A DNA stretch of 64,000 nt from Spiroplasma citri (lineage in GTDB: Bacteria; Bacillota_I; Bacilli_A; Mycoplasmatales; Mycoplasmataceae): the NCBI RefSeq assembly GCF_001886855.1, contig NZ_CP013197.1, positions 1,116,001-1,180,000 on the forward strand, read 5' to 3'. The position numbers and the translations under genes were made by a program. Positions 6,854 through 39,281 of the stretch are shown here, one piece after another; position 1 is the first letter of the stretch; the number at the start of each line of letters is the position of its first letter. The notes beneath the pieces were generated by a model, which did no database searches, was not told the origin of the DNA, and was given only the letters and a program-made list of their open reading frames with translations.

Positions 6854-6874
6854 TCAATTTAATTATATTTAAGG

Positions 6875-7126
6875 TATTATTATGGTTTTCTCTCTGTATA
6901 AAAATATTTATAAATTTGTTAATTTATTAAAAATTTGAATAATAAATTTAAAAGTTATTATTAAAATTATTATTAGTGAAATAATTGTTTTAATTGGTAA
7001 TACCATTCATGATAATCAAAAAATAGATGGTATTACATTTGTAAAAAATGAATTTATTATTTCTTCGATATTTTATTTCTTCTTTCTATTTAAAATAATT
7101 TATACAGAGAGAAAACCATAATAATA
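6875..7126. repeat. Inverted-repeat-bounded cassette B of unit 1
   Basis: The 28-bp arms 6875-6902 and 7099-7126 are perfectly inverted (core ATGGTTTTCTCTCTGTATAA). Cassette B starts 21 bp after cassette A ends. Each arm contains ATGG, so the ATG of the enclosed frame lies in the repeat while AAGG (ribosome site) lies just outside it. Confidence 0.75.
6882..7121 (+). CDS. Small membrane protein inside cassette B
   Basis: 79 residues with two hydrophobic stretches. The first seven and last six codons lie in the inverted-repeat arms. In the opposite orientation the same ATG would lead only to a ten-codon frame, so inversion would switch the gene off. No known family recognised. Confidence 0.45.
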
Positions 7127-12424: not shown

Positions 12425-12892
12425 TTATTCTTTTCAATCAGTAATTTCACCAGTGTTTTTGTCGATAGTAGGTGTTTGTGGTTCACCATCACCATCTCAA
12501 CGATAAATTAATTTTATTTTTGAAGCATCAAAATAAGCATAATTTCTATTATTTAAAAGAAGAATTCAATTTCATTCGTTTACTTGTTTTATATTATTAC
12601 CATTATTTTTTGCTAAATATTTATTAAATCCATATGTATCAGATTCAATAAAAAAGTATCATTTATTATTTAACTTTTTAAATTCATTTTCAAATTTATA
12701 TTTATCTTTTTGTCAATTAATATCAACTAATTTTCAATTACTATATTTTGGTGGTTGTTGTGGATTATATTGTGGTTCTGGTTTATTATTTTCCTCGTTT
12801 TCATTATTATTTTCTTTTTTACAACTTATTAGTGTTGTTGTGCTTGTTGCGGTTAATCCAATTGCTCCTATTATGCTAAGTCATTTTTTCAT
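12425..12892 (-). CDS. Lipoprotein sharing a domain with the phage attachment protein
   Basis: 155 residues. The signal peptide MKKWLSIIGAIGLTATSTTT ends in LISC (lipobox). A short Asn/Glu/Pro-rich linker follows, then about 103 residues identical, apart from one base in the DNA, to residues 183-285 of the attachment protein. It lies opposite to the phage operon. Ribosome site AAAGGAG. A surface-anchored copy of a phage domain could occupy the receptor or phage partner and block superinfection, or act as a donor for gene conversion. Both are inferences. Confidence 0.8.
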
Positions 12893-18779: not shown

Positions 18780-19083
18780 TTATTTAACCTCAATTATTTT
18801 AAATGTTCGTCATGGTTTAATAAAGTCAAGGAGAATGCAATCTGATGATGGTAGTTTACCAAAATAATTTCGTCTCCCATCATTTTTAATTTGTTTACGA
18901 ACAATCAATTCAACCATAACTAACATATGTATCTGGTTCAAAGTTTATAATTTTACAAGTATTATTATTCCTTAAAAAATTACTAAGCTCATTTTTTGAC
19001 AAAATAGCAGTAATTTTATCGCCAGTAATAACTATATTTAAAACATTATTATTAACATCTCGGACATGCTTTAATAAGTACAT
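18780..19083 (-). pseudogene. Hypothetical protein, one frameshift
   Basis: About 100 residues when one slip near 18905 is repaired (N-part MYLLKHVRDVNNNVLNIVIT, C-part ending RTFKIIEVK). Ribosome site GGAG 6 nt before the ATG at 19083. It overlaps the kinase ribosome site. Family unknown. Confidence 0.5.
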
Positions 19084-19101
19084 TGGGGTCTCCAACTATT
19101 C

Positions 19102-19584
19102 TTATTTTAATTGCTCAAAAATAATCGTTTTAATTTCATAACCTTTATCTTTTACTTTTTGCTTAAATAATTTCTTTTGACGATATTTTATTTTTAATGC
19201 CGTTGGTCAACGTCAAGATTCAGTATAAACAATTTCACTATTAACATTATTAACTTTAATTAAATCAAAATTAATTTTAAATAAATTCATGTCAATAAAA
19301 GTTGCTAATTCAATTTCCTTTGTATAATGATTTTTGGTTAAAACACAATGCAAAGTTTGATTATTGAACTTTCGAATAAATACTTGCCCAGTTGAACTAT
19401 CTTTTGTAATTTTAGTTTTAGCATCTTGATTTAAAAATTTATATAAAATTTCAAAAATTTCAGTTGGCATTGCTGGAATTTCAAAATGAACAGCAACAGC
19501 CATAATTCGTTTTTGTTCTTGTTGAGTATTTTGATAGACTGCCTTTTCATAATTATATACTTGTTCTAAAAGATTATTCTCCAT
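19102..19584 (-). CDS. Hypothetical protein
   Basis: 160 residues, soluble, with no recognised domain. A basic C-terminal tail contains KIKYRQKKLFKQKVKDKGYE. Its start overlaps the end of the previous gene (GATGGAGAATAA), so translation is probably coupled. Part of the minus-strand series running from the PTS IIA half to the kinase. Confidence 0.6.
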
Positions 19585-19879
19585 CGCTTTTGTCATTCGT
19601 TTCTAAAACTTTACGTTTATTTTTATGAAAATCATATTCAGTTAATGAACCATCAATACTTAATAAAATAAGTGCAGTGCCTCCAAAGAATAATCCTAAG
19701 ACTCCATTAATTAATATAATACCAATTAATGTCAACATTATAACTACAATTCATCGTCATAAAGAATGTTTGTGATGATTAATCATAAAATTAAATCATC
19801 CAATTAAGATAAAAACTAATCCAATTATTAACATAATTTTATTATTTTTAGTTGTTTTAAAAAACTTCCTAAATTTCAT
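19574..19879 (-). CDS. Small membrane protein
   Basis: 101 residues with two or three hydrophobic helices (IMLIIGLVFILIGWFNFMI; IVVIMLTLIGIILINGVLGL) and a charged C-terminus. Family not recognised. Confidence 0.6.
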
Positions 19880-19968
19880 TTATCCATTCAAATTATTGTA
19901 AAACTAATTAAAGTGCCAAGAAAAGCAATCATTGCAAAAAAATACAGATATTTTTTAGTCTTAACCAC
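19828..19968 (-). CDS. Possible small membrane peptide, GTG start
   Basis: 46 residues with one hydrophobic helix, starting GTG after AGGAAAG. It overlaps the next gene in another frame. Weak. Confidence 0.3.
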
Positions 19969-19969
19969 C

Positions 19970-20260
19970 CTAACTTTCCTTTCCTGTCCGTTCATACAAA
20001 CAAATTAAATGTTCAGCAAGATCAAGAATAATAATTGCTGAATTAAAATGGTCTTGGGCATGAACAACTAATACTGTCATTGGATATTGCTCACCATTAG
20101 CTTCATGTTGAATTAATTCCGCATGAAATTTATGTACTTTTGTTAACTCTTGGTGCGCTTCATTAATTAACTCTCGTGCAACAATATCTAAAATAGCGGG
20201 ATGATTAACTCCGAAAATAATTGTCATAAATTCATAATATAAATCTCATACACTTTGCAT
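19970..20260 (-). other. Chimeric gene: phage N-terminus fused to the C-terminal half of PTS lactose/cellobiose IIA
   Basis: Residues 1-27 (MQSVWDLYYEFMTIIFGVNH, then PAILDIV) are the start of the 52-residue phage protein. From about residue 23 on the sequence is IIA of the lactose/cellobiose PTS (ELIQHEANGE; VLVVHAQDHFNSA, the conserved late helix), running to ERTGKES. The usual phosphorylated His region lies in the missing N-terminal half, so no active IIA is expected. The matching N-terminal half is at 54763. The join is near 20195. Confidence 0.85.
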
Positions 20261-20281
20261 TTTTCTTATTCCTTTCCTAAA

Positions 20282-20605
20282 TGTTAATTACTAAAATCAA
20301 GATTAGAGTTTATTATTAAATATTAAATTCCGTGAATTAATTTTCTGATTGTTTGAATTCCCAAAACCACAAACATTAAAACTAACGGAGTAATTAATAA
20401 CATATGTGACCCTAAAAAAGCAATAAATCAGTTAGTAAAAGCAATCGCTCAATTAGCAAGAATAGCAGCAAAATCCGCTATTTGCTTAATAACATCAGCA
20501 TCGCCCCGTTAATAAATTTAAATTCATTAATAACACCTCACTTAAAATACTTTCTATTAATAATAAAACCTTCGCATACTCTAACCTTGATTTTAGTAAT
20601 TAACA
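20282..20605. repeat. Inverted repeat enclosing the U2 coat gene
   Basis: Arms 20282-20309 and 20578-20605 are 28 bp with one mismatch. The right arm also forms its own hairpin (TTGATTTTAGT/ACTAAAATCAA) followed by T5. Confidence 0.8.
20323..20527 (-). pseudogene. Major coat protein (U2), frameshifted
   Basis: Coat protein of the array type (ANWAIAFTNWFIAFLGSHML). An extra C in the CCCC run near 20507 breaks the frame after MNLNLLTG. Confidence 0.75.
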
Positions 20606-20658
20606 CTAAAAACTAAAATCAATTTTTATACTTGCGAAAGTATTTGATTGATATTAAC

Positions 20659-20841
20659 TTATTCAACAGACTTATCTGCTTTTTTAATTTTTCGTTTTCC
20701 CCATTCTTTAAATTCTACTTTTTTAGAACAATGCGGACAAATTAAATACTTATTTTTAGATCTAAATATTGTATTAACTGTTAAAAATAACAATAACATA
20801 AACATTGTAATTACTAAAATAATTGTTGCAAAAAGAGTCAT
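20659..20841 (-). CDS. Membrane protein with a CxxC tail (U2)
   Basis: 60 residues: one membrane helix, then KYLICPHCSKKVEFKEWGKR, a half zinc-ribbon on the cytoplasmic side. Its start overlaps the stop of the gene before it. Confidence 0.65.
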   Translation of the reverse strand: MTLFATIILVITMFMLLLFLTVNTIFRSKNKYLICPHCSKKVEFKEWGKRKIKKADKSVE

Positions 20842-20954
20842 TAATTATCACCACCTTTTTTTAATTTTTGCTTTCTATATTTAACATATAATTTTTGACT
20901 TGCTCCACTTAATTTAAAATGTTGTTCTTCCATAACACCAATGCCAATCTTATA
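20841..20954 (-). pseudogene. 3' fragment of the 75-residue phage gene
   Basis: Begins at VMEEQHFK, with a small deletion altering the frame. It is joined directly to a fragment of an attachment gene from another phage type, so this is a recombination scar between U2 and U3. Confidence 0.6.
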
Positions 20955-21165
20955 CCAAAGGAAAAATCATAATTTTCAAGACTTAAATTATGCATAAAAA
21001 AATCTTGTCTTATCATTAAAGTACTTTGTAAATCATATTTATTTAATTCATTGATAGTTTTTTTGCTAAAATTGTCTTTTTTTCTGAAATAGTGCCATTA
21101 AAAAGAAATATTCCCCCAAAGGAATTAATAAAACAAGAAAAAAAAACTTAATATTTTTTACGCAT
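20955..21165 (-). pseudogene. 5' fragment of a U3-type attachment gene
   Basis: Signal-like start, then KYDLQSTLMIRQDFFMHNLS, which parallels EYDFQSTLMLRQDYFMQGLD of the other units. It has frameshifts and is truncated at about residue 70. Confidence 0.65.
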
Positions 21166-21180
21166 AACATATTTTCCTTT

Positions 21181-21420
21181 CTATCTAACCACAAATATAA
21201 CTCTTATAATCATAAGCATAATCCCAAAGGCGATAAACAATCTAAAAATAGGGTGGGTTGCAATAATAAATAAATTAGCAACTAATTTATAAAATTCATT
21301 TGAACTATTAAACCATTGTTTTATTGTTGCCATTGCTGTCTCTGATGCTAAAAAAATATTTGCAACAAACGCAGAACCAATAATGTCTATTACAAGAAAA
21401 AATCATAATAATTTAATCAT
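21181..21420 (-). CDS. Phage two-helix membrane protein (U3)
   Basis: 79 residues with FIIATHPIFRLFIAFGIMLM as in the 78-residue family. Start overlaps the previous stop (TAATG). Confidence 0.7.
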
Positions 21421-21710
21421 TATTTTTCACCTTTATTAGCTTTAATATGTTTAATTTGTTTGCTCTCTTTCAAACGAATAGCACCTAAACCCGTAGACAT
21501 GGCAGAAGCGGTATTTTGAGACATTGTACTTAATTGTGGTGCTGAACTAACCAAACGCATAACAATTCCTAAAATACCCCCTATAATTCAAAGAATATAT
21601 AAAGGGATGTCTGTTGCTGGCAATTTTAAAGTTCACATTCAATCCATAATCTTCATAAATATATCAATAACAACATTAAAAATATCATCCCAACTCGTTA
21701 ATAAATTCAT
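21420..21710 (-). CDS. Phage membrane protein (U3, 119-residue family)
   Basis: 96 residues. FMKIMDWMWTLKLPATDIPL, a membrane helix and then a shorter basic tail than in the other units. Confidence 0.7.
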
Positions 21711-21712
21711 AA

Positions 21713-22721
21713 TTAATTACCTACTTTTTGTAAATTTTCAACTAATCTTGTTACTCCCATTTTTTCTAAATCTTCTAAACTATCAAAATTAACATAATTT
21801 CAATAAGTCATTGATTTATCTTTAACTCTGTCATTTTTAATATCTCTAACAAATTGTAAATATTTTGTATCATAATTCATAACATCTGATAAAGATACTG
21901 TAATTTTAAAATTACGCATACCAATAGCACTAGCATTTTTTAATTTTACTTTTTTGCCATTAGCAGAACGCTTAACACTTTCAGATTTTCAAATATCATA
22001 ATTATCTTTATCTTTAAAAATACCAATATTAAATTTAAACTTAGGAAAAAATCAAATAAAATATTTTAATATTCCCTTAAATTGTAAAGGCGGTGTTTTA
22101 CAATCTAAAGGCAACAATAATGCGTTTGCTAACTCCCAATATTCTACTCAATGATGTTTTTCTCTTTGCCCAATAAATACAACATTAATATCATATTGAC
22201 ACATAAGGACCAAACTGGGAATAACACCACTATATTTTTTCATAGCACCATCTTTAACCTCATTAGCGGGAATATATAAAGTCATTTCATCTAAAACAAC
22301 TAAATTACTTTCACTATAAGGTATTGGATTTTTTAAATTATTATTATCAAACATATCAAATGTCCCTAATGCTATATCATTGTTAAAAATTGGATAATTA
22401 GAATATTTAGTTTCATATTTTGAATATATTAATAAATAAGTTGCTAACGCTGTTTTCCCAGAACCTAAATCACCAATCACCATTGTTATAGGACTTTGTT
22501 TAATAGTTTTAAAAAATGCAAGTTGACTTTTTAAGTCTTTAAAAAATAAAAATATTACATATATACTAAATATATAAACAAAAACTATAAAAATAATATT
22601 TAATCAACCACTAAATATATTTTTTTTAAATATAATTAAACAATTTAAAGCAATCATAATTAATGTAAAAAAATCAATTCATTAAATATCAATTTATAAT
22701 TCATTTTCTAATATTTAACAT
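21713..22721 (-). CDS. Zot/pI-like assembly ATPase (U3), one slip near its start
   Basis: P-loop GDLGSGKT, Walker B LVVLDE, then the GQREKHHWVEY segment. A start at 22721 directly after the previous stop (TAAATG) makes sense if the T7 run at 22667-22673 (minus strand) is shortened by one. Otherwise translation could begin at 22657. It is clearly diverged from the other array copies, marking U3 as a different phage type. Confidence 0.75.
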
Positions 22722-22919
22722 TTAAGATGCCACCTTACATATTTTAAAAATCATATAAATAACAAACCATATAGTAAAGAAAATAAACAATCATATAACT
22801 ACCATACGGACATAATATTCAACAGTTTTATCAATCAAACCTAATTTATTAGCAGGAATAAAAAAAGCAAACTGATATAAACCTTGATAAACTTTATCTA
22901 AAAACTGATTTCAAGTCAT
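22722..22919 (-). CDS. Minor phage membrane protein (U3)
   Basis: 65 residues, MTWNQFLDKVYQGLYQFAFF and then a membrane helix, parallel to the 69-residue protein of other units. Confidence 0.65.
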
Positions 22920-23083
22920 TAACAACCCCCCCTAAATATCAATCTAAATATTCAAAATATAACACCAATAATAAAATTTAAAAACAAAGCAAAACAAATA
23001 TAAGCCAAAGCCGGTGGCATATCTACACCAAATATAATCTGCATAAATCCAATATAAATATCAAAGACACTTTTTTCTAACAT
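22919..23083 (-). CDS. Minor phage membrane protein (U3)
   Basis: 54 residues, MLEKSVFDIYIGFMQIIFGV and one helix, parallel to the 52-residue protein. The 20.2-kb and 54.9-kb host junctions lie in the corresponding gene of the array type. Confidence 0.65.
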
Positions 23084-23116
23084 TTTATTTATTCCTTTCT
23101 TTTCAGTAATATTCAA

Positions 23117-23408
23117 TACTTTTTAACTTTTTAGGGGTTAAAAGCTACTAATATCCGTGTATTAATTTTCGCAAAGTTTCAATCCCTAAAACAACGAACA
23201 TTAATACAATCGGAATAATTAAAATAGCGTTTGCACCCAAAAAAGCTAAAAATCAAGTTGTAAAACCTCCGGCTCATTTAGCAAGCGTTCCGGCTCAATC
23301 CTCAATCGCTTTAATAATTCCTGTTGTACCTGCATCCATAAAATATATTTTCTTTTCTAAATTAATAACTAGTATCAATATTTTTAACCCCTAAAAAGTT
23401 AAAAAGTA
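23117..23408. repeat. Perfect 27-bp inverted repeat enclosing the U3 coat gene
   Basis: Arms 23117-23143 and 23382-23408 (core TTTTAACCCCTAAAAAGTTA). The left arm begins 4 nt after the coat stop and the right lies 43 nt before its start. The sequence differs from the repeats of the other phage types. Confidence 0.85.
23148..23339 (-). CDS. Major coat protein (U3)
   Basis: 63 residues: short N-terminal amphipathic part, then FLGANAILIIPIVLMFVVLG and a basic end RKLIHGY. Homologous to the unit 1 and array coat proteins. Confidence 0.75.
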
Positions 23409-23425
23409 ATATAAAATATTACTAA

Positions 23426-23599
23426 TTAAATTTTATTAATAACTTTTTGTTGTCTTATTTGTTCTTTAAGAGATTTAATAATTCCACGATTATTTTTAAT
23501 TTCTTTGCGATGTTTAAACGCTACAATGCTATCAGCAATATAAAATATTAAAACCAAAAATAATGTAATAAACACCATAATATATAAAAATGTAATCAT
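23426..23599 (-). CDS. Small membrane protein with coiled tail (U3)
   Basis: 57 residues. One membrane helix, then a Lys-rich helical tail. ATG 23599 has AAAGGAGG upstream and overlaps the previous stop. Confidence 0.6.
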   Translation of the reverse strand: MITFLYIMVFITLFLVLIFYIADSIVAFKHRKEIKNNRGIIKSLKEQIRQQKVINKI

Positions 23600-23600
23600 A

Positions 23601-23783
23601 TTATTTAACCTCCTTTTGTTTTCTTTTTTCCAATTCAACTTTTAATTTTCGATTTTTTTTACTTTGTCTTAAAATTATTGATGTTTCTTTTTCTTTAATA
23701 ATTTTTATAATTCCAGCAATAAAATAAGCACAAATCGGCACCATAAAAAATATTAAAATACCTACTCTGATACATATTCCAAA
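23601..23783 (-). CDS. Small membrane protein, start unresolved (U3)
   Basis: An open frame of about 60 codons: a membrane helix (FFMVPICAYFIAGII), then a basic, helical tail. No ATG, GTG or TTG is in frame behind the AAAAGGAGG site, so a slip or an unusual start is likely. Confidence 0.5.
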   Translation of the reverse strand, partial: FGICIRVGILIFFMVPICAYFIAGIIKIIKEKETSIILRQSKKNRKLKVELEKRKQKEVK

Positions 23784-24053
23784 TTAATCAGCCTCCTTTT
23801 CATTTTTTCTATTATTAACTTTATTTTTAATTCATAAAATTAATTGAACAATATAAGAACCTATTAATGTTCAAAACATTAAATATCCAACATTCATTAA
23901 AATTGCTATTAAACCGAATTTTTTTAAAAATAATTCTAATTCTTTAACATCAACACAAGCAGGTATTAATAATGCCCCAAAAATAATTCATAAAATATGA
24001 ATTAAAATTTTTCATCAATTATTTTTTAAAAAATTTAATACTTTAACTTTCAT
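23784..24053 (-). CDS. Membrane protein (U3)
   Basis: 89 residues with two membrane helices and KKFGLIAILMNVGYLMFWTL. Four TGA codons as Trp. Unique to U3. Confidence 0.6.
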
Positions 24054-24171
24054 TCCAATTTTCCTTTACTACTTCTCATCGCTCGTTAGTAATTTTATCT
24101 GTTGAAACCAAATATGACCTTAACATTAATTCCTCTAATTTAACAATCATTTTTTCTTTATTCTTTGTCAT
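24043..24171 (-). CDS. Small charged protein (U3)
   Basis: 42 residues beginning MTKNKEKMIVKLEELMLRSY, helical. Overlaps its neighbours at both ends. Confidence 0.5.
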
Positions 24172-24256
24172 TATTTAACCTTAACAATTTTTTATGTTTA
24201 GGACAAATAATATCTTGTCTATTACATAAATAACAATCTGATTTTTTCTTAGTCAT
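24158..24256 (-). CDS. CCCH zinc-binding-like peptide (U3)
   Basis: 32 residues with CYLCNRQDIICPKH, a possible CCCH metal site. Shorter copies (23 residues) occur in U9 and U12. Confidence 0.6.
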   Translation of the reverse strand: MTKKKSDCYLCNRQDIICPKHKKLLRLNNDKE

Positions 24257-24380
24257 TATCTAACCTAGAATAATATTGATTAATTAAAACAACATTTTCA
24301 TTAACACAATTTCAACAATAACGAGACCCATTTTCTCAAACAGTATTATTAATACAAACCATACATAACTGTTGTTGCAT
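24249..24380 (-). CDS. Zinc-ribbon peptide (U3)
   Basis: 43 residues with two CxxC pairs (CMVC and CWNC, 14 residues apart) and a conserved WENGSRYCWNC. Present in every intact rep module, always right after the small basic protein, so probably a DNA-binding or regulatory partner. Confidence 0.7.
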
Positions 24381-24381
24381 A

Positions 24382-24696
24382 TTAACTATTGCTTTCTGTT
24401 GTTGTTGAATTATTAGAATATTTATTAATAAAATTTTGTTCGGTTTCATAAGGTAATATTTTTGATATTTTACCGTTAAAACCAATTTCTACATAGTAAA
24501 AATTACCTTCAATCATTTCGGGCAAACTATTTTGAAAATCACTATCTTTGCGAACTCATTTATCTTGGTATTCTTTACCAACTATTTTTTTACTTTCAAC
24601 TAGTAAAAATGTATATACATCATAATAAACATCTTTATTTGACTTATCTTTAATAACTTGATTATACTTAATTTCACTTAAATACACTTTAAACAT
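24382..24696 (-). CDS. Small phage protein after the origin region (possible ssDNA-binding protein)
   Basis: 104 residues: VYTFLLVESKKIVGKEYQDK, then WVRKDSDFQNSLPEMIEGNF and a beta-rich VEIGFNGKISKILPYE. The pattern of short strands and the position between rep and coat genes suit an ssDNA-binding role. This is inferred, as no family is recognised for certain. Confidence 0.55.
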
Positions 24697-25074
24697 AACT
24701 AAAAAATTTCTTTCATTTACATATATGTAAATAAAAGTTTCACAAGGCTTAAAACTTTAAATAAAATAAATGTTAAAAAATAAAAACTAATTTAATAAAA
24801 AATTAATAAAAAATGAATGTAAATATAAATGCAAAATAAAAACATTTACCTATATTTAAAGTTTCGTGGCTGAAAACCTTTATTGGTTTGAATACTTAAA
24901 TATAACTAAATGTTATAAATAATATTCTAATTTAATTTTACATAACAAAATAAATATGTCAACTATTACATATTTCATAACAAAAAATAAATTTATTTAT
25001 AAATTTATAGCCTTAACTTGTTTTTTGTTTTTGTTTTAATTAATTATGTGGTATAGGTCGTGGCTGAACTATGC
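24697..25074. promoter_or_regulatory. Origin-like spacer of U3: palindrome, anti-rep segment, DR2, stem-loop with tag
   Basis: 24715-24732 is an 18-bp perfect palindrome (ATTTACATATATGTAAAT). 24813-24832 is an inverted copy (19 of 20) of the first 20 bases of the rep gene. DR2 (24841-24914) holds the tag TCGTGGCTGAA at 24864-24874. The stem-loop 25051-25074 (6-bp stem, 12-nt loop) holds the same tag at 25058-25068 and contains the rep stop codon. No gene is seen in between. Confidence 0.8.
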
Positions 25075-26070
25075 TACACACTAGTGCTTTCCATTTGGAA
25101 GGTACTTTTTTAATATACCTTTGTTTACCTAAATTAAGGTATTTATCAATTTTTTTCGCGTTCGATATATGTCTAAATTAGATATTTTTTTGAAAAACCG
25201 AAATATTTTTTTATCATATGGGACATATTCTTCCATTTGTCAAAAATAATCTTTATTTCAATCACTATCAATGCTAACACCCATTAAATAACCATCTTTA
25301 TTATTAAACATAAAATTATGTTTTGTACCTTTTAATGAAGCGATTAATTCCATTTCGCACATCTCAATAACACCAACTTTAACAATAGGGTCGGTACAAT
25401 TAGTACTAAAACTATATGCCTTTGTATTTAAGACATAAACATTTTTACTTTTTTCTTCGCTTTGTGCTTTTACAATATATTTAGCAAAATATTTACTAAC
25501 AAATTCATTTGTACCAGTTTTAACTGGTAAATTTTCATTATATCCATAAGGTCAACATTTTCTAACTACTTTATTAGAGATATATTCACTAATATTATAT
25601 GAAAATGTATTCTTCCTTTTTTTGATATTCATAAGCAACTAAATATTTTAAGTCTTTATATTTATTTTTTTATATTTAGAAAAATAATAATTTAATCTTC
25701 GGATAAATAATCTAAAATGATGGTTTGCTTTTTTAATATCTTGGACATTTTCAGCATAAGTTAAAGTTAAAAAACCCATATTTTTACAACCACTAAAATT
25801 ATGAATTGCTTTACGAATACAATTTGCTTGTCAACGAACACGACTATTTAATAATTTAGTCTCATTTTCACCAGTATTTTTAATTCTAGTTGGATTGCCT
25901 TTACCAAATTTATTAATACACTCTAACGGTAATACAATCGTTTTAATATAAGGACCATAATATACTTTTTTAACATAATATTTTTGATTAACAAAATTAC
26001 TACTATAAATATAACGTCTGTATAGAACTTCTCCAGTCAAACGATTATAAGGATTTATATTTACATTCAT
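25069..26070 (-). pseudogene. HUH rolling-circle Rep (U3), several frameshifts
   Basis: N-part MNVNINPYNRLTGEVLYRRY, motif FLTLTYAEN, then frame breaks in the A7 run near 25670 and at the HFH motif, and one near the end. C-terminal variable segment SNLDIYRTRKK. It is a decayed copy of the Rep family described at 52081. Confidence 0.8.
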
Positions 26071-26102
26071 TTTTTATTTCCTTTCTAAAACAAAAATAAA
26101 AA

Positions 26103-26157
26103 AACATTTACTTATATTTAAAGTTTCGTGGCTGAAAACCTTTATTGGTTTGAATAC
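26103..26157. repeat. DR1 of U3
   Basis: Palindromic repeat with AAACC/GGTTT hairpin and tag TCGTGGCTGAA at 26126-26136, identical to the tags at 24864 and 25058. Confidence 0.8.
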
Positions 26158-26209
26158 ATTAAACATTTTAATAAATGTTTTTTATTCTAAGTTATTTACT
26201 AATTAATTT

Positions 26210-26488
26210 TTATTTATCCTCAGTATTATTAATACCTTGAATTTTTGCTTTTGTTTGTTCTATAAAATCATCGTATGAAATTGAAGCACTTTTTTCAACT
26301 GGATTTTTATTTTTTTTATCTAATTCTTTATATTTTTGTTCCCAATATTTTTTATGATTTTCTTTTAATTGTTGTTCAAGCGGTGCATATAAGGCATCCA
26401 TTTCTTTTCTAAAATCATCTGTTTTTTTTCATCCAGTAATAGTTGCAAAAGCAACTCCAAATTCTAAAATAGTTTTTAAAATAATCAT
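26210..26488 (-). CDS. Accessory protein of U3 (moron slot)
   Basis: 92 residues. The N-terminal hydrophobic stretch MIILKTILEFGVAFATITGW is followed by a highly charged helical region (LKENHKKYWEQKYKELDKKN). A good AAAGGAGG site. It could be membrane-anchored with a coiled cytoplasmic part. Family unknown. Confidence 0.6.
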
Positions 26489-26579
26489 TTTTTTTCCTCC
26501 TTTTTATTTCTAATTTTTATTATATTTATTTTTGATTAATTGTCAATTTTTAAACTTTTAATATTCTTAAAAACCCTTT

Positions 26580-26621
26580 GGGACGGTTGTGTTACTTAAT
26601 GGGACGGTTGTGTTACTTAAT
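26580..26621. repeat. J motif, tandem duplicated
   Basis: Two exact 21-bp copies (26580-26600 and 26601-26621) containing GGTTGTGTTACTTAAT. The rep of U4 is cut off exactly here. Confidence 0.85.
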
Positions 26622-27455
26622 TCAAAAATAATCTTTATTTCAATCACTATCAATACTAACACCCATTAAATAACCATCTTTATTATTAAACATAAAATTA
26701 TGTTTTGTTCCTTTTAATGAAGCAATTAATTCCATTTCACACATCTCAATAATACCAACTTTAACAACCGGGTCAGTGCAATTGGCACTAAAACGATATG
26801 CTTTGGTATTTAAGTCATAAATATTTTTTGATTTTTGTTGAGTGTATGCTTTTACAATGTATTTTGCAACATATTTACTAACAAATTCATTTGTACCAGT
26901 TTTAACTGGTAAATTTTTATTTAACCCATAAAGTCAATATTTTCTTATTATTTTATTAGGAATATATTCACTAAATATGATATGAAAATGGACTGCTCCG
27001 CGTTTTTGATATTCATAAGCAACTAAATATTTTAAATTTTCATATTTATTCTTTTTATATTTAGAAAAGTGATACTTTATTTTTTTAATAAATAAATTAA
27101 ATTGATGATTAGCCTGTTTTACATCTTGCATATTTTCTGCATAAGTTAAAGTCGTAAAACCTAAATTTTGATAACCATTAAAATTATGGATTGCTTTTTG
27201 AATACAATTTCTTTGCGAACGAATACGACTATTTAATAATTTAGTTTCATTTTCCCCAGTATTTTTAATCCCAGTTGGATTGCCTTTACCAAATTTATTA
27301 ATACACTCTAACGGTAAAACAACTGTTTTAATATATGGACCATAATATACTTTTTTAACATAGTATTTTTGATTAATAAAATTACTATTATCAATATAAG
27401 GTCTGTATAGAACTTCTCCAGTCAAACGATTATAAGGATTTATATTTACATTCAT
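26613..27455 (-). pseudogene. HUH Rep (U4), 3'-truncated at J
   Basis: 280 residues remain, with FTTLTYAEN, VHFHIIF and SKYVAKYIVK intact. About 55 C-terminal residues, including the variable segment, and the stem-loop are missing because the reading frame runs into the J motif and stops. Confidence 0.85.
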
Positions 27456-27490
27456 TTTTTATTTTCCTTTCTAAAACAAAAATAAAAAAA

Positions 27491-27545
27491 CATTTACTTA
27501 TATTTAAAGTTTCGTAGAGGGAAACCTTTATTGGTTTGAATACAT
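27491..27545. repeat. DR1 of U4
   Basis: Same repeat with tag TCGTAGAGGGAA (27512 on). The partner sites were lost with the rep 3' end. Confidence 0.7.
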
Positions 27546-27594
27546 TAAACATTTGAATAAATGTTTTTTTATTCTAATTAAATTAGAACTTTTT

Positions 27595-28134
27595 TTAAAT
27601 ATTTTTTATTTCTTTTATTTCACTTTGAGGATTTGCGCCAAAAATAACTAACGATACTTCACTAACAATAGCATTTTTTATATAAACTGCTTCTTTTTCG
27701 TGTATTTTTTTAATTTCTAAATCATCTTCATCAATTTTTGCACCAATACTAAGTTGCATTGGGCGATTTTCTTCTTGCATTTGTTTAATAACATAAATAA
27801 TATTTTTACCTTTTATTGTATTCGTATATAATCTCATTTTAACTCATAAACCATCTTCACAATTTTCTAATTTAGCAATACCTAAAAAATTATCATAATC
27901 ATATTTATGTTCTAAAAAAATAGGAACAATTATTTTATTTTGTTTAAATTGATTTTCAAAACTTTTTTTATCAAAAAAACTACCTTTACTATCAACAATA
28001 TTATACTTATTAGCAATACCAATTAATTCAACGACTTTATTTTCCTTAAAATTAGAATTATAACAAGATATTAAATTAGATGCACTTGTTGTTAATAGAA
28101 CTGAACTTAATAAAAATGCTAAAATTTTTTTCAT
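27595..28134 (-). CDS. Lipoprotein carrying an HK97-type prohead protease (S78) domain
   Basis: 179 residues (an internal TGA is Trp). A signal peptide ends in LISC with Cys24. The mature part follows the S78 prohead-protease pattern in order: GIANKYNIVDSKG, VPIFLEHKYD (His76), FLGIAKLENCEDGLWVK, MQLSIGAKI (Ser129), and IVSEVSLVIFGANPQSEI (Glu159). The three residues match the Ser-His-Glu triad of HK97-type capsid proteases. Filamentous phages build no prohead, so a surface-anchored protease-like protein is inferred. Located in the moron slot between J and DR1. No ribosome site stronger than a GGATGG is seen. Confidence 0.8.
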
Positions 28135-28240
28135 ATTTTTTTACCATCCTTAAAATAATTAATATATTTTTAAACATATTATATTTAATCATTTTTATTT
28201 TGTCAATTTTTAAAATTACACTTTTCTTTAAAATTGTTTT

Positions 28241-28260
28241 CTCCCGTTATGCTACTTAAT
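28241..28260. repeat. J motif (U5)
   Basis: CTCCCGTTATGCTACTTAAT, a variant of the recurrent junction motif, directly before the hairpin cluster. Confidence 0.7.
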
Positions 28261-28267
28261 CAAGGAA

Positions 28268-28351
28268 AGGGGCTTCGCCCCTAAGTCGCTCCGCGACTTT
28301 TACCCCTTTAAGTAAGGTGGTGCGTGGATAAACCACCACACCACCTTACTT
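28268..28351. other. Triple-hairpin cluster (U5)
   Basis: Three hairpins in a row: GGGGC/GCCCC with a TTC loop, AAGTCGC/GCGACTT, and a 13-bp stem AAGTAAGGTGGTG/CACCACCTTACTT. GC-rich in an AT-rich genome. Repeated in U6, U7, U9 and U10 between the attachment gene and J. Candidate packaging signal or complementary-strand origin, or a terminator. Confidence 0.75.
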
Positions 28352-28381
28352 TTTTTTACCAACAACATTATTTTACTACTA

Positions 28382-29797
28382 CTAAAAATAGCGTAAAAGT
28401 CCATTAACCATTGCTAAAACTAAAATAGAACTTAACATAATCTTAAATGTAATATCAAAAGCAAACAAATTACCAATATTATTAAACAATTCAGAAACAT
28501 TACTAAACACATGTACTATTCCATTAACAAATTTATAAATTTCTTTCATACCAGGCAAATTATTTACAATCCAAATTGCCGCATTTTGAATATGAATATC
28601 TAAACGATATCAAGCACCTTTTTTATAAGATAATTGTCAAATTTTTCCATCATTAAGTTCACCACTTCAATCAGTAGCATTATAAAGACTAAAATTAAAA
28701 CCATGAATTGAAATAGACCTATCTTCTGTTAATGTAGTTGTATTAAATCTAATTACATTAAAACCTTGATATTTTGACCTATCTGTCATATCTAATAATT
28801 TTATTGATTGAGTATATTTATCATTATTAGAAGGTAAAATATCAGTCTTATAATCTCAATTTGAATAATAAGAAAAATAATCATTAGTACTATTTATCGT
28901 ATAAGCATTATACAATTGCACTCGTGGTTTTAAATAATAAATATCTGTATCAGGAAATCTTAAAATATTAAAAACCATTGATTTTGGATATAATAAAAAA
29001 CCATTTTTTACAAAAAACACAAAACCTAAATTACCATTATTAGATGTAAAATTAGATGTAAAATAAATAAATTCTCTAAAATTAGAAATATCAAATATAA
29101 CTCTTAAAACATTAGAATAAAAATAATCTAAAATTAGAAATAAATTATCCAACGAATAAAAATTTTGTTTAACATTATCAACAAAATAATTACTGTTAGA
29201 TTTTTTAAGAATATCCATATTAATTAATTCTTTATAATTAAAATTTAAAACTAAATAATTCATATCAAAATGTTTATAACTTTGATTGGCAATAATCGGC
29301 ATAAATAAATATTCTATAATTTCTCAATTAAAAGTAAATTCATATTTTATATTGTTTTTATAAATAAAAATATCTAACAATTTATTTGGCGTTTTATAAT
29401 CTATTATTAATCTACCCAAAGGAACCTTTGAAATATCTTGTGAATTTCAACTTAATAAATAACTTCAAACAGTATTTTTAATTTTATTAAATCAATAATT
29501 ACTATCATTTTTATCAGCACTTACATTTGGAATAAAAGGAGTTGTAACACCAAAACTAAATGCATAATTACTAGGGTCTAAACCTTGCATAAAATAATCT
29601 TGTCGCAACATTAAAGTAGACTGAAAATCATACTCATTTGCTTTTGCATAAGTTAAATCACTAAAACTATCATTATTTCTTGTTTCTAATTTACAAACAT
29701 TACTAATATAATTTACAGCTGTAACACCACAAAAAAGAAATATTCAACCAAATATTAAATAAAAAATAATAAATATATCTAATAATCGTTTTCGCAT
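28382..29797 (-). CDS. pIII-like attachment/minor coat protein (U5)
   Basis: 471 residues, intact under code 4. Signal/membrane helix (LLDIFIIFYLIFGWIFLFC), a Tyr/Asn-rich exported part (DFQSTLMLRQDYFMQGLDPS), and C-terminal GMKEIYKFVNGIVHVFSNVS with a final membrane helix ending LLRYF. A four-residue tandem duplication (TSNF) is present only in this copy. Shorter than, and barely similar to, the unit 1 protein, except in layout. Confidence 0.8.
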
Positions 29798-29810
29798 TGT
29801 TTTAACCCCC

Positions 29811-30047
29811 TTAAACAATAAAAATAATTCTAATACCCATAATAATAATTCCAAACGCCATATATAACTGGAAAATAGGGTGTGTTGCAATAATAAATAA
29901 CTGTGCTACTAATTTATAAAAATCATTAGCAGACTCCAAATAATGCTTAACAGTTGAAAAACCTAAATCTGTTGCAACAACAATATTAGCAACAAAACCA
30001 AACCCAACAGTTAAACCAATAACAAAGAAAAATATTAACTTTAACAT
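29811..30047 (-). CDS. Phage two-helix membrane protein (U5)
   Basis: 78 residues, MLKLIFFFVIGLTVGFGFVA and FIIATHPIFQLYMAFGIIIM. Function by position only. Confidence 0.7.
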   Translation of the reverse strand: MLKLIFFFVIGLTVGFGFVANIVVATDLGFSTVKHYLESANDFYKLVAQLFIIATHPIFQLYMAFGIIIMGIRIIFIV

Positions 30048-30050
30048 TAT

Positions 30051-30410
30051 TTATTCATTTCCTTTATTTGTTTTCGCTGACATTCTTGCCTTTTTGTTTG
30101 CTGAACGAGTACCAACATAATTACCAAATTTTTTACCAGACTTATAAGAAAACGAAACAACACCTTTCGCACCCTTTGCTAAACTAGAACTTGCTTCTAA
30201 ACTTGCACGAGAAACTGAACTTAAACCACGAGAACTATTAACTAATAATAAAATAACATTTATAACACCACCAATTACTCAAATTACAAATAAAGGAATA
30301 TTTGTACCCGGCAATTTTAATGTTCACATTCAGTCCATTATTTTCATAAAAATATCAACTATGGTATTAATAGCACCATTCCATACATCATTAGCAAATA
30401 AATTAATCAT
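30051..30410 (-). CDS. Phage membrane protein (U5, 119-residue family)
   Basis: 119 residues: KIMDWMWTLKLPGTNIPLFV, a membrane helix, then a basic tail KSGKKFGNYVGTRSANKKAR. Confidence 0.7.
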
Positions 30411-31413
30411 TTTCTAACTCTCCTAAATTCTTTAATAAATGTTCCATCCCCATCTCTCGTAATTCATTAATCGTAATATCTTTTTTAACAATACTAGGTC
30501 AATTTTGTTTAATATAACTTGGTACTTTATCATTTTTTAAATCACGCACAAATTTTAAATATTTACTATCGTATTGCATTGCAATAGATAAAGGAATTGT
30601 TATCTTAACAAAATTAATACCAATATCTTTATTAGATTTTTTACGAACTCTTTTCCCGTTTGCTGTTCGTTTAACTGTTTCCGTTTTTCATACTAAATAA
30701 TCATCTAAATCATCAAAGAAACCTATTTTCATTTTAAAATAAGGAAAAAATATACTAGGTGGAATACATTGCATAGGAACAATAATCATATTAGCAATTT
30801 CTCTATATTCGACTCAATTTTGATTAATTCGTTGTCCGGCAAAAATAATATTATTATTAAACTGACGACATAATAAAAAATATGCTTTTAAACCACTAAA
30901 TTTTTTATCATTTTCCTTAGGGTTTGTACCATTTATATATAAAAATATTTCATCAAATAAAATTAAACTATCATCTGGCGGTATTTTATATTTTTTATTT
31001 TTAAAATCTAAATGGTTTAAACCTAAAACTCCAATTTTTTCATCATTAATAAAATAATTAGAATAAACATTATCAAATTTAGCAATTTGCGATAAATAAG
31101 TCATCAATAAAGTTTTACCAGTACCCAAAGCACCGTTAATAATTGATATTGGACTACTTTTAACAATTTTAATTAATTTCCGTGTTTGAAAAAGATTACT
31201 AAAAAAAGACCAAAAAAAGATAATATCAAAAATTACATCAAAAATAAAAAGAATAATATCTATAACTGATATAGAACAAAAATATATAAATTGTAAATTA
31301 AAACAAACAATAAAAAGATAAAACAAAATATTTGCCATAAATCAATTTACAAATCAATAAGAAAACTTAATATTTTTTTGTCTTTTAAATAAATTAAAAT
31401 AATTTTTAAACAT
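30403..31413 (-). CDS. Zot/pI-like assembly ATPase (U5)
   Basis: 336 residues, intact. Two N-terminal membrane helices, P-loop GALGTGKT, Walker B LILFDE, GQRINQNWVEY, and a conserved C-terminus ITLNELREMGMEHLLKNLGE. Its stop overlaps the next start. Confidence 0.85.
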
Positions 31414-31417
31414 ATAT

Positions 31418-31627
31418 CTACACCACCAATCTAATTGTTTTATATAAAATAAATAATGATAATCAAATTAAGAAAAAAACAACTAATCAAACACCTATCA
31501 TAATTACTGAATAAGTAATATTATCAATAGAACTACCGACAAAGTTATCAATTTCAGTTTTCGGAATAAAATAAAAAATTTGTAAAAGACCTTGATATAC
31601 TCGTTGCAAAAAAATATTTCAGTCCAT
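31418..31627 (-). CDS. Minor phage membrane protein (U5)
   Basis: 69 residues, MDWNIFLQRVYQGLLQIFYF, then an acidic linker and one membrane helix. Confidence 0.65.
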
Positions 31628-31785
31628 TATTTTATCCACCTAAAAATACAACTTAAAATTAAAAATAACATCCCAAAAACAAGTATTAAAAATACAACAA
31701 ATATAACAATATCTAAAATAACGGGATGATTAACTCCAAAAATAATTGTCATAAATTCATAATATAAATCTCATACACTTTGCAT
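31627..31785 (-). CDS. Minor phage membrane protein interrupted by host sequence elsewhere (U5, intact)
   Basis: 52 residues: MQSVWDLYYEFMTIIFGVNH, then a membrane helix. The intact frame shows GATATTGTTATATTTG at the point where the 20.2-kb and 54.9-kb copies switch to PTS IIA sequence. Confidence 0.75.
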
Positions 31786-31806
31786 TTTTCTTATTCCTTT
31801 CCTAAA

Positions 31807-32130
31807 TGTTAATTACTAAAATCAAGGTTAGAGTTTATTATTAAATATTAATATCCGTGAATTAACTTTCTGATTGTTTCAATTCCTAAAACCACAAACA
31901 TTAAAACTAACGGAATAATTAATAACATATGTGACCCTAAAAAAGTAATAAATCAGTTAGTAAAAGCAATCGCTCAATTAGCAAGAATAGCAGCAAAATC
32001 CGCTATTTGCTTAATAACATCAGCGTCGCCCGCTAATAAATTTACATTCATTAATAACACCTCACTTAAAACACTTTCTATTTAATAATAAAACCTTCGC
32101 ATACTCTAACCTTGATTTTAGTAATTAACA
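31807..32130. repeat. Inverted repeat enclosing the U5 coat gene
   Basis: Perfect 28-bp arms 31807-31834 and 32103-32130. An outer ACCTTCGCA/TGCGAAGGT pair and an inner hairpin are on the right side. Confidence 0.85.
31848..32051 (-). CDS. Major coat protein (U5)
   Basis: 67 residues, MNVNLLAGDADVIKQIADFA, AFTNWFITFLGSHML, one long membrane helix and a basic end RKLIHGY. The N-terminal acidic, central hydrophobic and C-terminal basic layout is typical of inovirus coat proteins. Confidence 0.8.
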
Positions 32131-32183
32131 TTAAAAACTAAAATCAATTTTTATACTTGCGAAGGTATTTCATTGATATTAAC

Positions 32184-32375
32184 TTATTCAACAGACTTAT
32201 CTGCTTTTTTAATTTTTCGTTTTCCTCATTCTTTAAATTCTACTTTTTTAGAACAATGCGGACAAATTAAATACTTATTTTTAAACTTAAATATTGTATT
32301 AACTGTTAAAAAAACTAATAACATTAACATTGCAATTACTAAAATAATTGTTGCAAAAACAGTCGTTACGGTCAT
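32184..32375 (-). CDS. Membrane protein with CxxC tail (U5)
   Basis: 63 residues, three longer at the N-terminus (MTVTTVFAT) than the U9 copy. CPHCSKK tail. Confidence 0.65.
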
Positions 32376-32602
32376 TAATTATCACCTTTACTTTCTATAT
32401 TTAACATATAATTTTTGACTTGCTCCACTAATAATTTAAAATGTTGTTCTTCCATAACACCAATATCAATAAAATTATGATTAAGATACAATTTAATTAC
32501 TTTTCTTAACATAAATAATGGTATTTTATTAGGTAAACATTGATGTATAACATTAACTAAATATTCTAATCGCTGTTTATATAACTTAGTTTGCTTTTTC
32601 AT
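32375..32602 (-). CDS. 75-residue phage protein (U5)
   Basis: Helical and basic, MKKQTKLYKQRLEYLVNVIH, then MEEQHFKLLVEQVKNYML. Start overlaps the previous stop (TAATG). Function unknown. Confidence 0.6.
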   Translation of the reverse strand: MKKQTKLYKQRLEYLVNVIHQCLPNKIPLFMLRKVIKLYLNHNFIDIGVMEEQHFKLLVEQVKNYMLNIESKGDN

Positions 32603-32721
32603 TAAAAAAATCCAACATAAACAAAAAACAATATAAATCAAATAACTAATAATAAACAAGAACTTATAAAAATAATTCAATCTCAATTAATATTTATTTT
32701 TTTATTTTTATTTTTTGTCAT
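32602..32721 (-). CDS. Small membrane peptide (U5)
   Basis: 39 residues: basic MTKNKNKK start and one membrane helix. It takes the place that the CCCH peptide occupies in U9 and U12. Confidence 0.5.
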
Positions 32722-32845
32722 AATCTAACCTAGAATAATAATTATTAATTAAAGCAACATTTTCATTAACACAATTTCAACAATAACGAGACCCATTCTC
32801 TCAAACAGTGTCATTAACACAAACCATACATAACTGTTGTTGCAT
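32708..32845 (-). CDS. Zinc-ribbon peptide (U5)
   Basis: 45 residues, CMVC...CWNC as at 24249, ending RLDYDKK. Confidence 0.7.
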
Positions 32846-32846
32846 A

Positions 32847-33197
32847 TTAATTATTGCTTTCTGTTATTGCTGAACTACTAGAATATTTATTAATAAAATC
32901 TTGTTGTCTATTGTATGGAACAACTTTAACAACACTTACTTTGTTATATTCTTTTCCCGTTTTTCTATCAGTGACAACTGGGAATTTAAGATTAATTAAA
33001 TAGTAATTACCTTTTTTCATTTCTGGTAAATCATTAGATAAATTACTATCTTTTTTAATTCAAGAGATAATATACTCCTTAGGAATTGGCATATCATCCT
33101 CATCAAGCTGCATAAATGTAAATACATCAAAAAATAAATTTTCTTTGTCATCCATTTGTCTATTAAAATCAACTTGGGCTAATAATACTTTATACAT
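32847..33197 (-). CDS. Small phage protein after the origin region (U5)
   Basis: 116 residues, MYKVLLAQVDFNRQMDDKEN, diverged from the U3/U9/U12 type but same C-terminal DFINKYSSSS. Ribosome site AAAGGAG. Same inferred role as at 24382. Confidence 0.55.
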
Positions 33198-33591
33198 ATA
33201 AAGTACTCCTTTCTTCACTTAATTAAGTAAATAAAGGTTTCATAAGGTTTAAAACTTTAAATAATTATAAATGCTAAAAATAAATTAACAATAATTAAAC
33301 TTATTAAAAAATATTCTATTAAAAAATGAATGTAAATATAAATGCAAAATAAAAACATTTATCTATATTTAAAGTTTCGTTCGAAGAAACCGTTTATTTT
33401 GGTTTGAATACTTAAATATAACTAAATGTTATAAATAATATTCTAATTTAATTTTACATAACAAAATAAATATGTCAACTACATATTTCAAAGCCAAAAA
33501 TAAATTTATTTATAAATTTACATCCCCAACTTGTTTTTTTTTTTTTTTTTGTTTTAATTAATTTGTGGTATAGGTTGTTCGAAGACTATAC
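33198..33591. promoter_or_regulatory. Origin-like spacer of U5: anti-rep segment, DR2, poly-T, stem-loop with tag
   Basis: 33326-33345 is the exact inverted copy of the rep start (20 of 20). DR2 has the tag TCGTTCGAAGA at 33377-33387. A T-run (33533-33550) precedes the stem-loop 33568-33591 (GTATAG/CTATAC), whose 12-nt loop carries GTTCGAAGA at 33577-33585. Here the palindrome of U3 is replaced by TTAATTAA. Confidence 0.8.
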
Positions 33592-34596
33592 TGCACAATT
33601 AGTACTTTCCATTTGGAAGGTACTTTTTTTTATGTACCTTTTTTTACCCAAATTAAGGTATTTATCGTATTTTTTTCGTATTTTATATTTATCTAAATCA
33701 GATATTTTGTTAAAAAACCGGAATATTTTTTTATCATATGGAACATATTCTTCCATTTGTCAAAAATAATCACTATGCCAATCACTATCAATACTAATAC
33801 CCAACATATGTTTTTTTTGTTTATCAGCAAACATATAAAAATGTTTTATGCCGCATAATGCCATTTTTAACTCTTCTTTTGTCATTTCAATAACACCAAC
33901 TTTAATAACGGGATTAGTACAATTTGCACTAAAACGATATGCTTTGGTATTTAAGTCATAAATATTTTTTGATTTTTCTTGACTATATGCTTTTACAATA
34001 TATTTAGCAACATATTTACTAACAAATTCATTTGTACCAGTTTCAACTGGTAAATTTTTATTTAGTCCATAAGATCAATATTTTCTAATTATTTTATTAG
34101 GGATATACTCACTAAATATAATATGAAAATGAACTGCTCCGCGTTTTTGATATTCATAGGCAACTAAATATTTTAAATTCTGATATTTATTATTTTTATA
34201 TTTAGAAAAATGATATTTTATTTTTTTAATAAATAAATTAAATTGATAATTTGCTTTTTTAATATCTTGCATATTTTCAGCATAAGTTAAAGTTGTAAAA
34301 CCCATATTTTTATAACCACTAAAATTATGGATTGCTTTTTGAATACAATTTCTTTGAGAACGAACACGACTATTTAATAGTTTAGTTTCATTCTCACCAG
34401 TATTTTTAATCCCTGTTGGATTACCTTTACCAAAATTATTAATACACTCTAACGGTAAAACAACTGTTTTAATATAAGGACCATAATATACTTTTTTAAC
34501 ATAATATTTTTCATTAATATAACATTCAGGGTTTATATAAGGTTTATATAAATTTTCTCCTGTTAAACGATTGTATGCATTTATATTTACATTCAT
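33586..34596 (-). CDS. HUH rolling-circle Rep (U5)
   Basis: 336 residues, intact. FTTLTYAEN (motif 1), VHFHIIF (HUH), SKYVAKYIVK (catalytic Tyr region). Variable C-terminal segment SDLDKYKIRKKYDKY. The stop TAG is the 3' arm of the stem-loop. Confidence 0.88.
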
Positions 34597-34632
34597 TTTT
34601 TATTTTCCTTTCTAAAACAAAAAAAAAAAAAA

Positions 34633-34690
34633 ACATTTATCTATATTTAAAGTTTCGTTCGAAGAAACCGTTTATTTTGGTTTGAATACA
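34633..34690. repeat. DR1 of U5
   Basis: Tag TCGTTCGAAGA at 34655-34665, same as in DR2. The hairpin loop is enlarged (AAACC-GTTTATTTT-GGTTT) in both repeats of this unit. Confidence 0.8.
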
Positions 34691-34762
34691 TTAAACATTT
34701 GGATAAATGTTTTTTTATTCTAAATTAATTATATTTTTTTATTGTTTATTGTCAATTTTTAA

Positions 34763-35284
34763 TTATTTATTTGTTTTTTTATTTAAAACTGAATCATAAT
34801 TATTTATTTTAATATAATTTTCTGTAATTTCTGCTTTTAATTTTTCACAATCAGAATTTTCACAATTAGATTTCACATTAATTCCTTGTTGCAATCAAGA
34901 TATTTTTTGATTATTTTCAGAAATAATTTTATTAGGAAGTCAAGTAATTGGACCATTTTTGATACTTTCTTCAAACATTTTTATAGCATCTATGTTTTGT
35001 TTTTTTAAATCTTCATTTTTTTTATTAACTCATTCTAAACAAGTTTTACATTTAAATAATTTTTCTTTTAATTTTATATTATTAATTTCTAAAACTGACT
35101 TTTTTTCTGCTGCTTCAATTAAAATTTTATTTGAATCAAAAGTAATATTATTTTCCATATTATTTTTTTTCTTTATTCAGTGTCATCATCGTATTTTATT
35201 TTTTTTAAAATTTCCATTATCATAATTATCACTATTAAATTTTATTTTATTATCAGAAAGATTTTTTTTATTAAATCAACCCAT
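34763..35284 (-). CDS. Accessory protein of U5 (moron slot)
   Basis: 173 residues, hydrophilic and helical. MGWFNKKNLSDNKIKFNSDN at the start, a central CKTCLEW, and NCENSDCEKLKAEI near the end, so four Cys may bind metal. AAAGGAG ribosome site. Several TGA codons as Trp. An internal ATG (MENNITFDS) could be a second start. Confidence 0.6.
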
Positions 35285-38883: not shown

Positions 38884-38904
38884 TTTTCTTATTCCTTTAC
38901 TAAA

Positions 38905-39228
38905 TGTTAATTACTAAAATCAAGGTTAGAGTTTATTATTAAATATTAATATCCGTGAATTAACTTTCTGATTGTTTCAATTCCTAAAACCACAAACATT
39001 AAAACTAACGGAATAATTAATAACATATGTGACCCTAAAAAAGTAATAAATCAGTTAGTAAAAGCAATCGCTCAATTAGCAAGAATAGCAGCAAAATCCG
39101 CTATTTGCTTAATAACATCAGCGTCGCCCGCTAATAAATTTACATTCATTAATAACACCTCACTTAAAACACTTTCTATTTAATAATAAAACCTTCGCAT
39201 ACTCTAACCTTGATTTTAGTAATTAACA
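38905..39228. repeat. Inverted repeat enclosing the U6 coat gene
   Basis: Perfect 28-bp arms 38905-38932 and 39201-39228. Confidence 0.85.
38946..39149 (-). CDS. Major coat protein (U6)
   Basis: 67 residues, identical in type to the U5 coat protein. Confidence 0.8.
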
Positions 39229-39281
39229 TTAAAAACTAAAATCAATTTTTATACTTGCGAAGGTATTTCATTGATATTAAC

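Follow-up and report, generated by a model that had tools for sequence, protein, structure and literature searches.

Long inverted repeats bracket a short, coat-like gene in plectrovirus copies of Spiroplasma citri, and the sequences collected here support selection on base pairing between the two arms in the message strand, across phage types whose arm sequences differ. The window, that is, the whole stretch of 64,000 nucleotides analyzed (contig NZ_CP013197.1, positions 1,116,001 to 1,180,000), is part of a Spiroplasma chromosome with many plectrovirus copies, in which TGA encodes tryptophan. The U3-type gene and its surroundings are 98.8% identical at the DNA level to phage SVGII3; sister boxes of another type (A-type) are also present in the window.

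23148 to 23339, minus strand: boxed coat-like gene of the U3 type, 63 amino acids (P0001; SVTS2 ORF7 family, PHROG 29787)
23382 to 23408, minus strand: U3/SVGII3-type box, arm on the 5′ side of the message; its 27 nt pair with 23117–23143 at 100% complementarity
23117 to 23143, minus strand: 3′ arm of the U3 box, beginning 4 nt past the stop codon
23105 to 23113, minus strand: outer 9-bp extension of the long U3 helix, partner of 23415–23423
31848 to 32051, minus strand: A-type coat-like gene, 67 amino acids (P0002)
32103 to 32132, minus strand: 5′ arm of this A-type box, 30 bp perfect
31805 to 31834, minus strand: 3′ arm of this A-type box, partner of 32103–32132
38903 to 39230, minus strand: second perfect A-type box (arms 38903–38932 and 39201–39230)
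20282 to 20605, minus strand: A-type box; 20 bp match exactly (20282–20301 and 20586–20605), and two G-U pairs are present
50388 to 50727, minus strand: A-type box with two G-U pairs; an internal duplication frameshifts the gene

The repeats around the coat-like gene are real, exceed chance expectation, and are stronger than the initial annotation had stated. The perfect 27-bp arms that it had reported for U3 are exact, with a spacing of 238 nt, and the stem scored 73, whereas none of 200 dinucleotide shuffles exceeded 37; such stems are thus not expected to arise by chance. When the genomes of the free phages were scanned, the coat-like gene was the top stem place in both, with scores of 79 versus 38 elsewhere in SVGII3 (394 sliding windows) and 66 versus 44 elsewhere in SVTS2 (342 sliding windows), where "elsewhere" denotes windows more than 150 nt from the gene. 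The arms of the A-type had been put at 28 bp; they are present, but measure 30 bp (perfect) in two boxes and 20 bp (exact) in the two at 20282 and 50388, where the helix extends further through two G-U pairs. As had been claimed, no similarity between A-type and U3 arm sequences is evident. The arms do not, however, lie right at the gene ends, only near them: about 40–50 nt before the start codon and 4–16 nt after the stop codon. In the box at 50388, where the coat-like gene is frameshifted by the short internal duplication (50432–50645), the arms are retained.

The name "coat gene" that the boxed gene had been given is unproven: the ICTV profile instead names g13 as the major coat protein of SVTS2 (PMC8295915). 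Assigning "coat" by family membership was rejected, as no Pfam family was found for the boxed protein and PHROG 29787, to which it belongs, is listed with function unknown. A short amphipathic segment, a membrane segment, and a basic tail would fit the coat protein of a filamentous phage, and the gene is referred to as coat-like here.

The coat-like gene was surveyed at 36 places, drawn from five genomes of the genus, one genome of another genus (G040), SVTS2, SVGII3, viral contigs, and one plasmid. Positive genomes numbered 5/14 in the genus and 6/60 in the family, the additional one being G040. These 36 places are partly dependent, because repeats within one genome were counted and two viral contigs share the arm region with copies in genome G003; RefSeq duplicates of the two phages, fragment matches overlapping counted places, and eight weak matches were left out. 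The places in S. poulsonii and S. phoeniceum coincide by coordinates with those in G008 and G006. A wider search of 298 genomes of the order returned only the counted places and the weak matches (G006:81323 plus a single one from each of seven genomes; E between 0.0007 and 0.005). Arms were present, in message orientation, at 35/36 places, each time as leader-trailer complementarity across a single gene, the arrangement known from icaR-type pairing. The sole place without arms, G006:1003410, is also missing the gene's 5′ half. Stem scores at the armed places ranged from 58 to 79, whereas the highest shuffle reached 50 (12 shuffles per distinct place). The downstream gene was on the same strand at all 36 places; by a stricter motif it was recognized at 31/35 places, and never in the opposite orientation. 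Four arm types could be distinguished: A, U3, a third (L024/L043, 25 bp) whose sequence is alignable with U3, and that of G040 (27 bp, perfect) from the other host genus. No such box was seen around ORF7 of the vespertilioviruses SpV1 C74 and SkV1 (with homology judged from gene position and character), and Acholeplasma MV-L1 contains no inverted repeat of at least 15 bp in this survey. Thus, the boxing device is not universal.

The changes that the arms have undergone bear on whether pairing or sequence is conserved. The initial annotation had proposed to look for paired changes, and these were found within the U3 family and between U3 and the third type, while the pair-keeping changes in the A-type arms are all G-U. 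In the U3 family (98.2% paired), two pairs were changed on both sides (G-C to A-U and A-U to U-A), and the comparison of U3 with the third type revealed a 16-bp block with four double changes and no single one. Among eight distinct A-type arm pairs, four position types carried G-U on the message strand and none A-C, beside one T-C mismatch (in one copy) and one A-A at the end; three rows lose the last pair, and 99.1% of cells in the long helix are paired. As no pair in this helix was altered on both sides, the control shuffles for it are uninformative, and its support consists of one-sided G-U changes in four events only. A transition in a Watson–Crick pair yields G-U or A-C with about equal likelihood a priori, so that four of four in favor of G-U (1 in 16) is suggestive but not strong by itself. 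Wobble changes in an A-type local hairpin (two, in its outer stem; see below) and in the box around rep (two) took the same message-strand direction. Pairing rather than sequence is thus what is kept in the arms of the coat-like box, again as in icaR-type pairing. Arm-to-arm copying could have helped to maintain the perfect identity of the arms.

A feature that the initial annotation had overlooked is a local hairpin that competes with the upstream arm:

23405 to 23423, minus strand: U3 local hairpin, AGTAATAT-TTT-ATATTACT, then TTTTAACTTTTT (read from the sequence; predicted leader fold)
32093 to 32166, minus strand: A-type two-stem hairpin upstream of the gene, containing the 5′ arm and followed by a T-tract; its outer stem covaries

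Since the U3 hairpin overlaps the 5′ arm, hairpin and long helix are mutually exclusive, and the same bases are contested in each of the four types. In the A-type hairpin, three outer-stem pairs were changed on both sides (C-G to A-U, C-G to G-C, and G-C to C-G); the hairpin comprises 10 double-changed cells, and its covariation score was reached in 0/500 shuffles. It is followed by a TTTTATTAT tract that is invariant in 15 rows of the A family. Folds predicted for the U3, third-type, and G040 leaders likewise contain a local hairpin overlapping the arm (at G004_1216507 and G003_564775, the predicted leader fold is partly different), and the T-tract follows in three of the four types (A, U3, and third), G040 being the one without it. 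In predicted folds of the full-length RNA, the long helix was favored by 18.9–28.7 kcal/mol in 11/11 places folded. The SVTS2 record (AF133242.2; L002) carries a 79-nt stem_loop labeled "unknown" at 5402–5480. This segment does not form the A-type local hairpin, but one of equal length 132 nt upstream, at 5270–5348, does (−28.5 kcal/mol), which indicates that the annotation in AF133242 is probably misplaced. The arms around ORF7 are unmarked in the SVTS2 and SVGII3 records.

How the gene is positioned relative to the arms suggests what the pairing might do. The leader arm lies just before the ribosome-binding site of the gene, and the stop codon is closely followed by the trailer arm. By this placement, the gene and its own ribosome site form the loop, and the ribosome site of the next gene lies outside, beyond the trailer arm. 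The reading that we prefer, and to which we give about an even chance, is that the arms close the coat-like message with a long-range helix of 25–30 bp, by which it is insulated or processed. The helix would then act as RNA. During transcription, the local hairpin would form first; the trailer arm, once it emerges, would displace it and close the message. Once closed, the message could be insulated from the genes downstream, with cleavage of the long duplex by RNase III as the most likely means, and its ends would be shielded from nucleases by the closed helix. In this position, a helix would insulate the message without blocking translation of either gene, so that a product needed in many copies might be expressed separately from the rest of the operon.

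An RNA duplex of 25–30 bp is a natural substrate of RNase III, and the processing stems of this enzyme are near-perfect duplexes of ∼22 bp or more. The arms, at 25–30 bp, reach this length, and the host encodes RNase III (232 bits versus a cut-off of 166). Cleavage of the helix by RNase III, with a changed amount or half-life of the coat-like message, would be the expected outcome. Three options had been put forward initially, namely, an invertible switch for the gene, a closing helix, and paired processing signals. Selection on message-strand pairing supports either of the latter two, and the uniform orientation at 36/36 places counts against the switch.

An alternative role for the same elements would be that of a conformational switch, in trans or in cis, in which the local hairpin is an intrinsic terminator or attenuator and the trailer arm of other message copies pairs with the nascent leader to alter read-through. 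The covarying A-family hairpin with its invariant tract, the recurrence of hairpin and T-tract in the U3 and third types, and the complementarity of the trailer arm to part of the local hairpin in all four types are what such a switch would predict. On the same RNA, however, the trailer arm is made only after the decision to terminate has been taken; predicted folds of the full-length RNA have it paired in cis; and the G040 hairpin has no T-tract. Moreover, consensus scans of 22600–24200 and 31400–33200 returned no terminator-like site by the rule of the scan, the T-tract after the local hairpin notwithstanding, and no excess of promoter-like sites (10 and 12, compared with shuffle means of 13.7 and 15.2). 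We therefore consider the switch rather unlikely. A promoter within or after the arm was also entertained and dropped, the scan counts being uninformative against shuffles.

The helix might also act in DNA. Hairpins serve in priming, packaging, or replication in other filamentous phages, and a structure in the packaged or replicating viral strand might likewise serve second-strand priming, packaging, or replication here. Because the DNA in plectrovirus virions is positive-sense, that is, of message sense (PMC8295915), a helix in packaged single-stranded DNA would show the same strand bias, as G-T. What speaks against such a role, which appears quite unlikely, is that the helix tracks the boundaries of gene and ribosome site, that three of the four types have a T-tract behind the local hairpin, and that SVTS2 has an origin-like hairpin cluster elsewhere (2190–2265). 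If templates are often switched, or one arm copied from the other, while the single strand is replicated, the arms could also have arisen as a functionless by-product; near-identity of the arms within a type while sequences differ between types, as well as the boxing of rep and of R8A2B ORF8, would be in keeping with this origin. Yet copying would not prefer G-U to A-C, the arms keep their place next to the same gene across types and in another host genus, and the local hairpin covaries on its own, all of which makes a mere by-product very improbable. That perfect inverted repeats of 25–30 bp bracket one gene is also what an invertible DNA switch, or a recombination (attachment) site, would look like. 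However, the initial observation that all copies face the operon direction holds across the entire survey: 36/36 places have the same orientation and 0/36 are inverted, which leaves an invertible switch unsupported. In addition, a G-U bias is meaningless for double-stranded DNA, and no recombinase was recognized by eye among the listed prophage ORFs, some of which were family-searched. In the host genome, allowing up to 2 or 3 mismatches, the arms occur only as pairs borne by phage copies (14 A-type matches forming seven pairs, and one U3 pair), with no chromosomal partner and no solo arm sites. An inversion or recombination function is hardly credible on this evidence. Attachment sites of CTX-like phages, which take the form of a stem, match a site in the host chromosome; an attachment or Xer-type site was rejected here as no such partner was found. 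Transposon ends were rejected likewise: by eye, no matching target duplication flanks the U3 and A boxes, and C74 offers no clean empty site for box B.

A closing helix of the coat-like message would have relatives among known RNAs. In the processing stems of rRNA, long inverted repeats close a stem around a product that is excised by RNase III; the closing stem is alike, whereas the product enclosed here is a small coding message, the processing of which is only inferred. In hok mRNA, an earlier local hairpin gives way after transcription to pairing between the 5′ and 3′ ends. This displacement by folding back resembles the one proposed here, but genes and sequences are different, there is no toxin, and no 3′ trimming is known as a trigger. 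Fold-back control of hok is mentioned in the report on icaR of Staphylococcus aureus (PMC3868564). According to the same report, the trailer of the icaR message pairs with its Shine–Dalgarno region, blocks ribosome loading, and makes a substrate for RNase III. The likeness to icaR is that leader and trailer of one message pair across a whole gene, generating a duplex that RNase III could cut. The differences are that icaR pairs through a 7-nt core motif, compared with near-perfect helices of 25–30 bp in phages with single-stranded DNA, and that its pairing covers the ribosome site, which the coat-like box leaves free in the loop. Leader-trailer pairing is thus known in bacterial messages, and the coat-like box is a variant of it with very long helices. 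No known RNA family reached its gathering score in 19000–35000. The arms were not found described in the available parts of the Spiroplasma plectrovirus literature, including PMC2386487, PMC3563533, PMC12408004, and PMC8140453; the original papers on SpV1-R8A2B and SVTS2 may describe them. If the closing helix is real, phages with single-stranded DNA and almost no known regulators would dose single genes by helices joining the ends of a message, which would provide a directly testable account of operon control in plectroviruses. The helix would also represent a fast-changing RNA element with covariation, realized by no fewer than three different sequences at a single position.

The initial annotation had also missed that rep is boxed and that repeats of this kind are already marked in the record of SpV1-R8A2B:

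24805 to 26078, minus strand: rep box in the U3 phage with arms of 26 nt (26053–26078, on the side of the rep start codon, and 24805–24830)
33320 to 34602, minus strand: rep box (arms 34576–34602, holding the rep start codon, and 33320–33346)
40021 to 41304, minus strand: rep box (arms 41277–41304 and 40021–40048)
6536 to 7126, plus strand: R8A2B-type boxes, A (6536–6557 and 6832–6853) and B (6875–6902 and 7099–7126, around the 79-aa ORF8)

The rep repeats are perfect over 26–28 bp in several copies. The start codon falls within the leader arm, which in some copies takes in the ribosome site as well; the trailer arm follows the stop codon at a distance of about 220–260 nt. A helix over the start codon that scored above all six shuffles was found in 11/20 copies, two of these 11 with message-strand G-U pairs; the nine copies that failed this test were the four of G040 and five others. 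Additional boxed rep genes were observed at 51806–53092 and in L041, L123, and L129 (repeats of 22–28 bp overall, start codon in the leader arm), and at G003_195155 (L129), imperfect complementarity extends to ∼95 nt of the rep leader. It is the rep box only that shares with icaR (PMC3868564) a helix covering the start codon and, in a subset of copies, the ribosome site too. If the closing helix is real, early (rep) and late (coat-like) genes would place the ribosome site in opposite ways.

The record of SpV1-R8A2B (X51344) already annotates inverted repeats A/A′ and B/B′ with no function stated; B/B′ (28 bp) boxes ORF8 as the coat-like gene is boxed, and a copy of it is present in the window. 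C74 and SkV1 are without arms of the R8A2B type. At 6536–7126, two small ORFs resembling membrane proteins are boxed side by side, and the stretches after their right arms are alike (ATATCAAYTTAATTATA), as though two paralogous cassettes stood in tandem.

Spiroplasma plectroviruses might even use a general code for boxing genes, which is possible although we doubt it. An inverted copy of the leader placed after a gene would then be a cotranscriptional timer. In the case of rep, the helix would close over the start codon once the whole gene is transcribed, so that Rep would be made from unfinished messages only and copy number would be limited; in the case of the coat-like gene, it would replace the terminator-like hairpin and free an insulated, stable message. 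Boxes would be swapped as units between phage lineages.

Two other ORFs in the window deserve mention. On the opposite strand (12428–12892, minus strand), a lipoprotein-like ORF of 155 aa carries 295 bp that perfectly match, in inverted orientation, part of the phage ORF1 gene (DUF3688; 10756–11050), and this ORF could be a decoy for superinfection exclusion. Another lipoprotein-like ORF, with a cysteine after a signal-like N-terminus (27598–28134, minus strand), matches Peptidase_S78 (Caudovirus prohead protease) with 43 bits versus a cut-off of 21; it sits in a plectrovirus region, where a capsid protease is unexpected.
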